NCBI RefSeq assembly: GCF_004345675.1 | Contig: NZ_SLWU01000008.1 | Location: 1 to 64,000, forward strand | DNA from: Caldanaerobacter subterraneus | GTDB lineage: Bacteria; Bacillota; Thermoanaerobacteria; Thermoanaerobacterales; Thermoanaerobacteraceae | DNA: 64,000 nt | Reading direction: 5' to 3' | Shown: positions 6,462-57,808 of the stretch, piece after piece | How positions within the stretch are numbered: the first letter of the stretch is position 1 | How the letters are laid out: the number at the start of each line of letters is the position of its first letter | Notes under the pieces: generated by a model | What the model saw: only the letters and a program-made list of their open reading frames with translations | Database searches by the model: none | Told to the model about the DNA's origin: nothing | Made by a program: the position numbers and the translations under genes

Positions 6462-7597
6462 TCTTCATCTCCTTTTTTTCGCTTAAATCTTCCTAAGTAG
6501 CTGGCAAATTCTCTTTTAGTCGCTTTAGAAAATTTGTACAGCATCTCCCTACCCCCGGTACTGAGAAGCATAAAGGCAACGGCAGAAACTATTCCTACTC
6601 CTACCAAAATCCATATGCCAGTAGCTGCAGCCTTATTCTGCCCGGGAAGTGGTTTCTGCGTTTTTGTAACTGTTCCCACCTGTTTTTGCTGATCCAACCC
6701 GTAAAGAGCTTTTGTAAGGACATCTGCCATAAACCCTGCTGAAACTTCTGCCCTTTGCCTCGTGTGAGGGTATGTCCCAAATTCTAAAAGAAGAGCATTG
6801 GGAGTCAGGTCCTGATTGAAGTCTCCTTCTCCAAAAAATATGTCTTTTATAAGGTGAGGATAAGTTTTGTCGGCAATGGCTTTAATCCTATACGCCAGAT
6901 TTTGATTAGCTTTTAAATTGGGGTTATTCCTCCCAAGGACAATTCTCACTCCTGCAGCATTTTTACCTGCAATTTTCCTTATGTATTCCTCCAAAGGAAC
7001 AGCATCTCTATGGACATCTAAAAGGAGATCTGGCTTAAATTCTTTCAGCAATTTCACAGCCCCTGCCCTTGAGCGGGTATATGCCATGGCATCGTGGGGA
7101 AGGTACAAGGTCCAATCCACTTTTACCTTTACTCCTTTGTCTTCCAATGCTTTCTGAAGAGCAGTATCTACCCTGTATATTCCTCCGTGTCCATTAATGC
7201 TAGCAGCGCCGTCAGATGGCAAGTAAGATTCGTCACTGTGAGTGGAGTATATTGCTATCCTTTTTTCACCTGTGTTTTGCGATACAGCTATCGCAGCAGA
7301 AACTTCTTCATCCACATCTGGAAGCTTTTCCGTCCGTATGTACTTGGCATAAGCAATTTTCTCTCCTTCATCTACCTCCACTATTTCGTACAGCTTGTTA
7401 TCCCCTGAAAGGTACATGTCTTTTTTGTGCACATCCATTGCTGTTCGAAACAGCACTTTATCTGTTTTAATGTCATATACTGTGTAGTATCCTGAATTTC
7501 CAAGCCCTTCAAAAGGAATTGACGCAAGAATTAATACAAAAGCTAAAAATGTAAAAATCTTATTCTCTATCCTTTTCACCTTCATCACCCTTTTCAT
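6458..7597 (-). CDS. spoIIP: Stage II sporulation protein P (peptidoglycan hydrolase)
   Basis: SpoIIP is the amidase/endopeptidase that, with SpoIID and SpoIIM, thins septal peptidoglycan so that the mother cell can engulf the forespore. The 379-residue product has an N-terminal signal-anchor (about 12-32), an amidase-type domain with likely metal ligands H120, E123 and H196 (in DVHRD), and a C-terminal hydrophobic segment near residues 325-345 followed by a basic tail. It overlaps the end of the upstream DUF1614 gene by 38 bp. The second ATG (7585) is an alternative start, because neither has a well-spaced Shine-Dalgarno sequence. Confidence 0.92.
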   Translation of the reverse strand: MKRVMKVKRIENKIFTFLAFVLILASIPFEGLGNSGYYTVYDIKTDKVLFRTAMDVHKKDMYLSGDNKLYEIVEVDEGEKIAYAKYIRTEKLPDVDEEVSAAIAVSQNTGEKRIAIYSTHSDESYLPSDGAASINGHGGIYRVDTALQKALEDKGVKVKVDWTLYLPHDAMAYTRSRAGAVKLLKEFKPDLLLDVHRDAVPLEEYIRKIAGKNAAGVRIVLGRNNPNLKANQNLAYRIKAIADKTYPHLIKDIFFGEGDFNQDLTPNALLLEFGTYPHTRQRAEVSAGFMADVLTKALYGLDQQKQVGTVTKTQKPLPGQNKAAATGIWILVGVGIVSAVAFMLLSTGGREMLYKFSKATKREFASYLGRFKRKKGDEE

Positions 7598-15707: not shown

Positions 15708-15742
15708 GAAAAAATCTAGCTTATCATTCCTGATAAGCTAGA
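15708..15742 (-). terminator. Intrinsic terminator at the end of sigG
   Basis: A perfect 12-bp stem TCTAGCTTATCA/TGATAAGCTAGA (15715-15726/15731-15742) with loop TTCC is followed on the minus strand by six T (15709-15714). The stem includes the sigG stop codon. It isolates sigG from ylmC. Confidence 0.92.
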
Positions 15743-16514
15743 TGTACTTTCTCATATGATTTAATGCAGCTTTTTCCAGGCGAGAAACCTGCGCTTGTGA
15801 AATCCCTATCTCTTTTGCGACTTCCATCTGCGTTTTTCCTTCAAAAAATCTCATTGTAAGTATCATCTTTTCTCTCTCATTTAACTTCTCTAAGGCTTCT
15901 TTTAAAGCAATTTTCTCAAGCCATACCTCGTCTACATTTTTATCATCACTTACCTGATCCATCACATATATGGCATCTCCACCATCGTGATATATAGGCT
16001 CAAACAAAGAAACCGGCTCCTGTATAGCGTCCAGTGCCATCACTACTTCTTCGCTTGGAAGGTCTAACTCTTTAGCAATTTCTCCAACTGTCGGTTCTTT
16101 GGAATTCTCAGAAACGAGTTTATCCCTCACTTGAAGTGCTTTATAAGCTATGTCTCTCAAAGAACGACTTACCCTTATAGGAGTATTATCTCTTAAATAT
16201 CTCCTTATCTCTCCTATTATCATCGGAACAGCGTAAGTAGAAAACTTCACATTTTGATCTAAATCGAAATTGTCAATGGCTTTAATAAGGCCTATGCATC
16301 CCACTTGAAAAAGGTCATCCACAGACTCTCCCCTATTGTTAAATCTCTGTATAACGCTTAAAACAAGCCTTAAGTTGCTGTTTATAAACTCTTCCCTTGC
16401 CTTTTTATCGCCATTTTTCATCCTGATGAGAAGTTCCCTCTGTTTAGAGGGCTTTAAAACAGGCAATTTAGAGGTGTTTACTCCTGAAATTTCTACTTTA
16501 TTATTGTTATTCAT
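15738..16514 (-). CDS. sigG: Forespore sigma factor SigG
   Basis: Late forespore sigma factor (sigma-70 family). The ATG at 16514 is chosen because it aligns with known SigG starts (xNKVEISGVNTSKLPVLK) and GGAGG lies 11 nt upstream; the in-frame TTG at 16532 is less likely. The 258 residues hold region 2 (DDLFQVGCIGLIKAIDNFD), region 3 and region 4 with the helix-turn-helix MEVAKEIGISQAQVSRLE. Expression is probably controlled by an own sigma-F/G-type promoter and by a leader hairpin on read-through transcripts from sigE (see the leader feature). Confidence 0.97.
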   Translation of the reverse strand: MNNNNKVEISGVNTSKLPVLKPSKQRELLIRMKNGDKKAREEFINSNLRLVLSVIQRFNNRGESVDDLFQVGCIGLIKAIDNFDLDQNVKFSTYAVPMIIGEIRRYLRDNTPIRVSRSLRDIAYKALQVRDKLVSENSKEPTVGEIAKELDLPSEEVVMALDAIQEPVSLFEPIYHDGGDAIYVMDQVSDDKNVDEVWLEKIALKEALEKLNEREKMILTMRFFEGKTQMEVAKEIGISQAQVSRLEKAALNHMRKYI

Positions 16515-16586
16515 AGCCAATCCTGCCTCCAACCGCTAAGCTCATTTACAGTATTGCCGGCAGGATTGGAAAATATACTGTAAAAT
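16515..16586 (-). promoter_or_regulatory. sigG leader: forespore-type promoter plus ribosome-site hairpin
   Basis: The 72-nt gap between sigE and sigG holds two interleaved perfect inverted repeats. In transcript order they are A TTTACAGTAT (16584-16575), B CCAATCCTGCC (16569-16559), A' ATACTGTAAA (16554-16545) and B' GGCAGGATTGG (16527-16517). B' overlaps the end of the GGAGG site and ends 2 nt before the ATG. GTATA (16578-16574), 15 nt, then GGCAATACT (16558-16550) fits the sigma-F/G promoter pattern. A transcript from it would begin past A and B, leaving B' unpaired. Confidence 0.75.
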
Positions 16587-17312
16587 TTATACTAACCTGT
16601 TCATTTCTTTCTTTAGTCTTTTTAAAATTTTCTTTTCAAGCCTAGAAATGTAAGACTGAGAAATCCCTAGCATATCTGCTACTTCTTTTTGAGTTTTTTC
16701 CGTACCGCCCTCCAATCCAAATCTCAACCTGATTATCTTCTTTTCTCTGTCAGGAAGCTTCTTTAAGGCAGAGGTCAAAAGCTCTCTTTCAACCTCGTCC
16801 TCAATGTACTTATACACTGTTTCGTTGTCAGTGCCTAAAATATCTGAGAGCAAAAGTTCATTTCCGTCCCAGTCAACATTTAAAGGCTCATCAAAAGAAA
16901 CCTCCAGCCTTGTCTTATTATTCCGCCTTAAATACATCAAAATTTCATTTTCAATGCAGCGAGAAGCATATGTGGCCAATTTTATCTTTTTCCTGGGATT
17001 AAAAGTATTTATAGCCTTTATGAGTCCTATAGTGCCGATTGATATTAAATCCTCAATTCCCACTCCTGTATTCTCAAATTTTTTTGCTATATAAACTACC
17101 AGCCGCAAATTCCTCTCAATTAAAATGCTTTTTGCCTCGTTATCTCCCTTTTCCATTTTTGATATTAAATAACTTTCCTCTTCCACAGAAAGGGGAGGAG
17201 GCAAAGCTTCACTTCCGCCTATGTAGTATACCTCCTCTGCAAGGTCCAAAAAGTCTAGAAGTTTTCTCCATATCAACAGCAATTCTATTTTTAATTTTGT
17301 TTTAAGTTTCAC
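16587..17312 (-). CDS. sigE: Mother-cell sigma factor precursor pro-SigE
   Basis: Early mother-cell sigma factor, made as an inactive precursor. The GTG at 17312 is chosen: GGAGGTG stands 6 nt upstream and the resulting start ([18 protein letters not shown]) resembles the membrane-associating pro-sequence of known SigE. About 25 residues in, the conserved [16 protein letters not shown] begins the mature part. Region 2 ([19 protein letters not shown]) and the region-4 helix-turn-helix ([17 protein letters not shown]) follow; 241 residues in all. It follows spoIIGA, whose product is its likely protease, by 14 bp. Confidence 0.96.
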
Positions 17313-17326
17313 CAAAAACACCTCCA

Positions 17327-18139
17327 TCAATCCATAATTTCGGGGTTTAACAATGCAAACTCCATTTTGTCTGTAGAAATACCAAGTATGACCTCTTTAA
17401 TTTCTTTTTCGTTAATTATCAATCTGTCAGGCCTTATGCCAAGCAATAATCCTTTTGTTCCCACACCAGAAAAAGGTATAATTCCTATTCTAGAATGCCA
17501 TTTCTCATCTTTTATAATTTCCAAAACTTTTCCAAAATCAATTTTTCCCTCTGCTACAAATTCCTCTAAATCATAGGGCAAAAGACTTTTTACTGAAGAA
17601 TAAGCTACGACAACCACAGGCAGGTTAGAAAGCGGGTCAAAAAGCTTATTTCCTGTATCCACAAAACCATAGGTTTTCACTTTTTTCCCAAATATTTCTA
17701 TATAAATCTCGTACTTCATCTTGTCCTGTTTTGCTTTTTTTACTACATAATCCCAGTTAAGAAAAAGGAGCAATGCCGCAAATCCAATTCCTACTGGAAG
17801 AGCAGTTTCTCTTCCTTTCACAGCATATAAGAGTGCAAAAATTGTACCTCCCATCGCAAAGGAAACTAAATAAAAAACTGATAAGATTCTAAAAAATTCT
17901 TTTAATGTTTCTGGGCTAAACGCCATATATATTATTAAGAGGGATAAAAGGAACTTAGCCAAAAATTCTCTAAAAAAACTGTAAGGCGTCAAAAAGAAAA
18001 TCAGCACATATCCTGCCCCTATAAAAGCCCCCAACAGCAATTTAAAAGGAGTTGAATACTTTCTAGAAAATCTTTGCGTAAGAGAAAGAATGACATAATT
18101 GATGAGCAAATTTTCCAGAAAAAGTATATCAAGATACAT
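17327..18139 (-). CDS. spoIIGA: Sigma-E processing peptidase SpoIIGA
   Basis: Membrane aspartic protease that cleaves the pro-sequence of SigE after asymmetric division. The ATG at 18139 has GGGGAGG 7 nt upstream and starts [10 protein letters not shown], as in the family; a longer frame upstream lacks homology. Residues 1-135 hold about five membrane segments, followed by a soluble protease half with the catalytic DTG motif (D161) in [14 protein letters not shown]. Upstream, TATAAT at 18215-18210 is a plausible -10, and TTTTGTAGAA (near 18267) is one mismatch from a Spo0A box, but both need testing. Confidence 0.93.
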
Positions 18140-56389: not shown

Positions 56390-57808
56390 ATGAAAATCAA
56401 AGCTAAACAACTTTCTCTCTCCGATATTTACGATGATGTTCAATCCTTCTTTGAAGAAGATAAACCCAAGTTTATTAAACTCTTTGATTCCTTTGTTGAT
56501 TTATCTGAACTTATTCCATCTTCTTTTTATGCCCACTATTATTCCCACTTTGGACGTCATAGAGATTTTTCTCTTGAATCTATGCTCACTGCTTTGATTA
56601 TCCAAAAAATTCTCTCTATCCCTACTGTTCAACTCCTTGCACATGTTCTTAAACTATCTAAAGAATTAAGAGAGCTTTGTGGCTTTAAAAGAGTCCCTCA
56701 TCCTTCTCAATTCTCTAGATTTAAATCCATTTTCCTCAAAGATTTGGAGAATTTCTTCAATAATCTTGTTAATTTAACTGAGCCTATTTGTCAGGCTATT
56801 AATCCTTCACTTTCTAATATCCTCATCGCTGATACTACTGGCTTTGAACCTTATGTCAGAGAAAATAATCCTAAGTTCTTTGATTCCCTTTATAGAAATA
56901 TTAAAAAGTTCTCTAAATCTAATCCTGATTTTGATGCCCACTCTTATGCTTGTTCTAAAATGCCTAAGTTCGCTCACTCTAATCCTGATGCTAAATTCTC
57001 TTATATTAATGGCCATTATTGTTACTCTATCAAAGCTACCATCCTCACTAATGGCTTAGGCATTATTCAGCATATTAGTTTCTATGACGATGATTCTTTA
57101 AATGTCAATACTGCTAAATCTGCTGCCGAGTCTAAAGATTTGTACGATTCTAAAACTTTAATCCCTTCTCTTAAGGAATTCTTTAATTTACATCCTAATT
57201 TCTCTTATAGATACTTCTTAGGTGACGCTGGGTTTGATTCTTTTGATAATTATAAATACTTGTTCTCAAAGCTTGGCATAATCCCTATTATCCCTATTAA
57301 CCCTCGAAATTCTAAAAACTTACCTCAGCCTACTTTTAACTCTGATGGTATCCCTACCTGCCCCCGTGACCCTTCTCTTAAAATGTCCTATGATGGCATC
57401 GTTCGGGAAAAAGGTAGAGCTACCAGAATTAAATGGCTTTGCCCTATGTCCAAAAAAGTTAGACTAAATGGTAAAACTACTTATATCCTTCAATGTGATA
57501 ACCCCTGTACCTCTTCTAAATGTGGCAGAATATTCTATACTACCCTTGATATTGATTTTAGAAAAAATACTTTTGTCCCTCGTAACTCTAAAAAGTGGTC
57601 CAAACTTTATGAAAAACGCCCTATTATTGAAAAATCTATTTCTCTTTTAAAAAGTTCTATCGCTGTTGATAGCTTTAAACTCATAAATACCAGGTCAATC
57701 AAAGCTGATGTTTTTCTTGGGGCTATCACTCAACATATTGGTTTAATTATTACTGCAAAGCTTGGTACTTTTGAACATCCTTTATCTTTGAAAAAACTTT
57801 TGGCTTGA
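56390..57808 (+). CDS. IS4/IS5-superfamily (DDE) transposase
   Basis: A 472-residue transposase with an N-terminal DUF772-like helical region (SLESMLTALIIQKILSIPTVQLL), then a DDE domain: first aspartate in LIADTTGFEP, second in FLGDAGFDS, and a late glutamate region (YEKRPIIEKSISLLKSS). A zinc-ribbon-like patch (CDNPCTSSKCG) precedes the end. The frame is complete, so the element may be active. The family assignment within IS4/IS5/IS1182 is uncertain. Confidence 0.85.
   Translation: MKIKAKQLSLSDIYDDVQSFFEEDKPKFIKLFDSFVDLSELIPSSFYAHYYSHFGRHRDFSLESMLTALIIQKILSIPTVQLLAHVLKLSKELRELCGFKRVPHPSQFSRFKSIFLKDLENFFNNLVNLTEPICQAINPSLSNILIADTTGFEPYVRENNPKFFDSLYRNIKKFSKSNPDFDAHSYACSKMPKFAHSNPDAKFSYINGHYCYSIKATILTNGLGIIQHISFYDDDSLNVNTAKSAAESKDLYDSKTLIPSLKEFFNLHPNFSYRYFLGDAGFDSFDNYKYLFSKLGIIPIIPINPRNSKNLPQPTFNSDGIPTCPRDPSLKMSYDGIVREKGRATRIKWLCPMSKKVRLNGKTTYILQCDNPCTSSKCGRIFYTTLDIDFRKNTFVPRNSKKWSKLYEKRPIIEKSISLLKSSIAVDSFKLINTRSIKADVFLGAITQHIGLIITAKLGTFEHPLSLKKLLA

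Follow-up and report, generated by a model that had tools for sequence, protein, structure and literature searches.

Introduction

A block on read-through expression is known for the sigG gene (spoIIIG) of Bacillus subtilis (PMC5942855, citing Masuda, 1988 and Sun, 1991). Complementary sequences have been proposed to block translation of the read-through mRNA, by a pairing that cannot form in mRNA from the gene's own promoter; another, smaller hairpin at the sigG ribosome-binding site (RBS), less common in Clostridia, is detailed by Mearls (2018; PMC5942855). Published work on B. subtilis and C. acetobutylicum describes read-through into sigG, in a three-transcript pattern; for C. difficile, the authors concerned deduced it. 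No description of a read-through sigG hairpin outside B. subtilis was found in the literature searched.

Insertion sequences of the IS10/IS50 type are protected against outside transcription: RNA begun beyond the element includes an arm masking the RBS of the transposase, and RNA from the element's own promoter is made without the arm. Sporulation relies on proteins being made in the proper cell and at the proper time, and many sporulation genes follow others without a terminator. A leader that made only correctly initiated mRNA translatable would solve this read-through problem.

The sigG Locus

In the window (the whole 64,000-nt stretch of Caldanaerobacter subterraneus DNA that was analyzed), spoIIGA, sigE, and sigG form a single minus-strand run, with 72 nt separating sigE and sigG. 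As in B. subtilis, sigG lies behind spoIIGA-sigE on the same strand, with a sigma-F/G promoter between. The intergenic sequence reads ATTTTACAGTATATTTTCCAATCCTGCCGGCAATACTGTAAATGAGCTTAGCGGTTGGAGGCAGGATTGGCT-ATG. The features are:

17327..18139, minus strand: spoIIGA, first gene of the operon reading into sigG (TIGR02854, 292.5 bits)
16587..17330, minus strand: sigE (TIGR02835, 445.6 bits)
16589-16587, minus strand: sigE stop codon, TAA
16575..16584, minus strand: A1, 5' arm of the second inverted repeat, TTTACAGTAT, overlapping the -35 box; pairing not conserved
16574..16578, minus strand: -35 box GTATA of a sigma-F/G-type promoter, a motif common to the surveyed sigG leaders
16559..16569, minus strand: B1, anti-RBS arm CCAATCCTGCC, entirely within the promoter spacer; in the same place in relatives
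16550..16558, minus strand: -10 box GGCAATACT of the sigma-F/G-type promoter, by motif, after a 15-nt spacer
16545..16554, minus strand: A2, 3' arm of the second inverted repeat, ATACTGTAAA, overlapping the -10 box; pairing not conserved
16543..16546, minus strand: probable transcription start of the own-promoter mRNA, from promoter geometry
16526..16530, minus strand: Shine-Dalgarno (SD) sequence GGAGG, its 3' end within B2
16517..16527, minus strand: B2, RBS arm GGCAGGATTGG, pairing perfectly with B1 (base-by-base check and folding)
15738..16514, minus strand: sigG, ATG at 16514 (TIGR02850, 515.5 bits, above cut-off)
15714..15743, minus strand: intrinsic-terminator-like site 3' of sigG, from a terminator scan

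The promoter between sigE and sigG was recognized by its motif, GTATA-N15-GGCAATACT, which matches the surveyed leaders and on which its putative sigma dependence rests. Base by base, the repeats are interleaved in the order A1-B1-A2-B2, as a sequence-only reading of this DNA had said; the perfect 11-bp pairing that it gave for 16569-16559 with 16527-16517 is likewise exact. It had also described the arm as overlapping the sigG ribosome site. This stands for the position of B2, which stops 2 nt short of ATG 16514, but only in part for the SD: the last two bases of GGAGG are in B2 and the rest lie just outside the stem.

The Pairing and Its Predicted Effect

By pairing energy between the region from -75 to -25 and the RBS, the sigG leader ranks first among the 337 genes with a recognizable SD in a 464-kb sample of the organism's genome, and it is also first by helix length; ranks in this study rest on those 464 kb and on 800 kb of one congener. 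When the sigG upstream region was shuffled, at least 11 contiguous pairs with the RBS appeared in about 1e-4 of trials. The long leader, as it would be transcribed by read-through, has a folding z of -3.4 against shuffles, and the predicted short leader from the gene's own promoter showed no significant structure (minimum free energy -4.0 kcal/mol, z +0.9 to +1.9). At 37°C the predicted unpaired fraction of the 14 nt before the sigG ATG is 0.57 in the short leader and 0.20 in the long one; the corresponding values at 70°C are 0.67 and 0.23. A similar calculation for sigE-adjacent leaders gave lower predicted SD accessibility in the long form for 68 of 80 (median unpaired 0.17 vs. 0.52). A search of Rfam returned a single match, far under its cut-off, and none above gathering score.

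Very probably, the leader permits ribosomes to use sigG mRNA only when it was started at the forespore promoter that belongs to the gene itself. Between the -35 and -10 boxes, the spacer encodes an arm complementary to the ribosome-binding region of sigG. A polymerase reading through from spoIIGA-sigE would copy both arms, and the resulting hairpin would hide the message from the end of the SD to 3 nt before the ATG. RNA from the sigma-F/G promoter would start at about 16543-16546, downstream of the arm, leaving the RBS open. In this organism, such read-through and repression would keep sigma-G out of cells transcribing spoIIGA-sigE without an active forespore promoter. With the arm housed in the promoter spacer, the arrangement takes up no extra DNA. 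The same placement means that own-promoter mRNA should lack B1, and to this extent the earlier proposal of a promoter between the arms, giving a transcript without the upstream one, is borne out, with the start placed by inference. That only the gene's own promoter gives translatable mRNA is sound as regards the absence of the arm from the predicted own-promoter mRNA; it is a strong form of the claim, which would allow no leakage. The "timing device" of that reading is better described as promoter-specific, and therefore compartment-specific, translation.

An RBS-hiding hairpin in what is probably a thermophilic lineage could also suggest an RNA thermometer, in which the hairpin itself senses temperature. 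This is extremely unlikely here, and was rejected in silico: the B1/B2 hairpin, at a predicted -25.2 kcal/mol at 37°C, is predicted still to be folded at 65-75°C; the same design is found in Bacilli; and the arm is missing from the own-promoter mRNA. A strong hairpin between two genes might also be a transcription attenuator, ending read-through RNA between sigE and sigG, but this is barely conceivable for a hairpin that spans the RBS and has no T-run after it, the absence on which the idea was rejected. The terminator scan detected no terminator-like site in the sigE-sigG interval, and one after sigG.

The Second Repeat

The sequence-only reading took the interleaved 10-bp repeat to mean competing folds or a pseudoknot. 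Each repeat is indeed improbable alone in this species (A1/A2 has a z of -5.3), and an H-type pseudoknot could form with loops of 5, 4, and 17 nt; both could then be functional, as a pseudoknot or as two folds switching sigG translation. In the congeners that were looked at, however, mismatches interrupt the A1/A2 helix, and over 205 leaders its median z is 0.07, with z < -2 in nine. With each fold enforced, A1/A2 is 13 kcal/mol weaker than B1/B2, and its core, GTAT/ATAC, is supplied by the -35 and -10 boxes. Since the pairing is absent from relatives, the pseudoknot idea fails, and a function for both repeats is very unlikely; A1/A2 is most likely incidental. B1 starts 17 nt past the sigE stop codon, so that, judging from footprint size, a stopping ribosome should cover A1 and leave B1 free.

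Conservation and Co-variation of the sigG Arm

Leaders of sigG were drawn from the genus, family, order, class, and phylum and from Bacilli, with a second set from named genomes. The arm is kept at the same position in 10 of 10 genomes of the genus (ATCCTGCC/GGCAGGAT; in L015, GTCCTGCC/GGCAGGA). Compared with its congeners, the window species has CCA for TTT in the spacer and TGG inserted at the RBS, so that changes on both sides add three pairs to a helix of 8 bp, making it 11 bp long. Elsewhere among the clades the arm differs in sequence, yet matches the local RBS: examples are AAAACTTCCCCCTGT/ACAGGGGGAAGTTTT; at the order level CTGTCCCTC/GAGGGACAG and CCTCCCG/CGGGAGG; at the class level TTGCCTCCC/GGGAGGCAA and TTACCTTCCCC/GGGGGAGGTAA; and a perfect 15-bp arm/RBS pair in one family (f38). 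Most sampled Bacilli have TTTTCCCTCCTA-type arms. Clade by clade, an arm is a better match to its own RBS than to the RBSs of related leaders (permutation P ≤ 0.0005, or 0.009 for class family f4), in a test for which the control without adjacent sigE was also slightly in excess (P 0.016).

Thermoanaerobacterium-like members of the same family (genera g2 and g3, L016-L025) have a weak sigG arm or none. These genomes have kept the sigG promoter and lost the sigG arm; g3 retains an arm on its spoIIP, spoIIM, PBP2-like, and M23 genes.

The sequences thus support a sigG pairing that is conserved in the genus, co-varying in distant clades of Bacillota, and lost in some lineages. Of the four arms that had been put forward for comparison in relatives, B1 and B2 co-vary and A1/A2 pairing is not conserved. 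An old and conserved device, as first suggested, fits B1/B2 in being genus-wide, co-varying, and commoner beside sigE; it does not fit g2 and g3, where the arm is lost, or the interleaved repeat, which is unconserved.

Association With an Adjacent sigE

Where sigE lies no more than 150 nt upstream, pairing between spacer and RBS is significant in 53 of 78 distinct leaders (median z -2.76); where it is farther off or was not found, the counts are 7/37 and 5/30 (together 12/67), with median z of -0.34 and -0.10. With close relatives collapsed, z < -2 is found in 22 of 47 sigE-adjacent clusters vs. 8 of 57 others (P 4e-4), and among matched neighbors 61 of 90 pairs have the stronger pairing beside sigE; for both clusters and pairs, the proxy for relatedness was the N-terminal 44 residues of SigG only. 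The later set of named genomes points in the same direction more weakly, and is not significant alone (13/36 sigE-adjacent vs. 6/24 others, P 0.18), so that the association is lineage-dependent. In L089/L184 (L184:3985-4773, plus strand), sigG lies behind a transporter gene, away from sigE, and still has a 13-pair arm, which points to protection against any read-through.

The position of B1 within the promoter spacer could conceivably reflect a DNA operator, or constraints of promoter function, with RNA pairing incidental. This is very unlikely: the arm sequence turns over fully between clades with complementarity retained, one arm is the RBS itself, and pairing accompanies an adjacent upstream sigE. 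For promoter-specific translation, the survey widens what was one case in B. subtilis to a pattern seen by comparison, for which nature supplies the control: the arm is usual beside sigE and rare elsewhere.

Similar Leaders at Other Genes

In the 800 kb of congener sequence, 19 of 746 genes pair their upstream region with the RBS at -20 kcal/mol or lower, vs. 1.6 after swapping of upstream regions. The strong-pairing genes fall mostly into two classes, insertion-sequence transposases (several families confirmed) and sporulation genes. The latter include SpoIIP, SpoIIM, and YunB, identified by curated models, together with an M23 peptidase and a PBP2-like protein, which are classed with them solely on promoters and analogy. 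Borderline for such a leader is a D-Ala-D-Ala carboxypeptidase gene.

Three further observations may be recorded here. In the window, an IS1182-type transposase gene (56390-57808, plus strand) has an upstream TTCCTCCA-type sequence that pairs with its RBS at -21.7 kcal/mol, a read-through-proof layout like that of sigG. A beta-propeller protein gene (L338:8168-9085, plus strand) has one of the strongest such leaders, at -28.7 kcal/mol. The window also encodes a second SpoIIP-family domain (6704-7258, minus strand; E 1.6e-54).

Leaders of spoIIP, spoIIM, and the M23 and PBP2-like genes resemble that of sigG in having an anti-RBS arm that co-varies with the RBS, and differ in that some of their promoters look sigma-E-type. 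Within the order, each shows turnover of arm sequence and a better fit of arm to own RBS in the own-versus-foreign test (P ≤ 0.0005 each, in sets that leave out a few leaders that were not extractable); for spoIIM and the PBP2-like gene, the pairing weakens in the families farthest away. The gene's putative promoter contains the arm or is overlapped by it, and the gap to the upstream gene is 41-70 nt. The gene upstream of spoIIP encodes Gpr; for the others, sequence inspection points to a U32 peptidase, a methylglyoxal synthase, and further proteins with no known sporulation role.

Throughout the family, and also in a single f3 genome, the spoIIP gene directly behind gpr has an anti-RBS arm that co-varies (L290-L313; own genome L282:13788-14948, minus strand). 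There the arm would block forespore read-through from gpr and leave a mother-cell promoter, in a mirror image of sigG. Beyond the order it is sporadic, clear in L432, L454, and L459 and absent in most, and no phylum-wide claim is therefore made for spoIIP. The spoIIM arm spans a sigma-E-like -35 box and spacer (by motif, GAATATT-N14-CATAAATT) and is conserved with turnover in the family (L377-L400). The M23 gene, behind a methylglyoxal-synthase-like gene, has a conserved arm with complete sequence turnover across the order (L401-L423), and the PBP2-like gene, behind a U32-peptidase-like gene, combines a sigma-F/G-like promoter, again by motif, with an anti-RBS arm (L314-L336). The yunB leader (AAAACACCTCC/GGAGGTGTTTT, with CATAAAAT between the arms) comes from one genome (L374:1287-1982, minus strand).

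It seems reasonably likely that in Thermoanaerobacterales sporulation is subject to a further, general level of control by own-promoter-only leaders. Several forespore and mother-cell genes (sigG, spoIIP, spoIIM, the M23 and PBP2-like genes, and probably yunB), at about 40-70 nt behind other genes, would each have an arm against the RBS within a developmental promoter, and transcription in the wrong cell or at the wrong stage would then yield untranslatable mRNA. A multi-gene read-through-proof pattern of this kind was not found in the literature searched. If the extension to further sporulation genes holds, operon RNA-seq is predicted to overstate their expression; it also yields a list of candidate leaders.

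Comparison With Known Systems

The precedent cited in the sequence-only reading, a translation block on read-through sigG mRNA in B. subtilis, is correct (PMC5942855). As in the block described there, an arm upstream of the gene's own (here inferred) start pairs with the RBS, and the predicted short leader has no such hairpin. The details differ: the helix is 11 bp here rather than the 20 or more pairs reported for B. subtilis, the arm sequence is different, the start codon is ATG rather than GTG, and the spacer is 15 nt. The small B. subtilis hairpin in own-promoter mRNA (Mearls, 2018) also hides the RBS by means of upstream leader sequence, but its role is dampening rather than exclusion of read-through; a hairpin of that type (about -6 kcal/mol or lower) is absent here, the minimum free energy of the short leader being -4.0 kcal/mol.

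Unlike the transposases of IS10/IS50-type elements, sigG is a host developmental gene, and the place of its arm is the promoter spacer, not an IS end. The sigG leader described here is a further case of the kind of leader known from B. subtilis.
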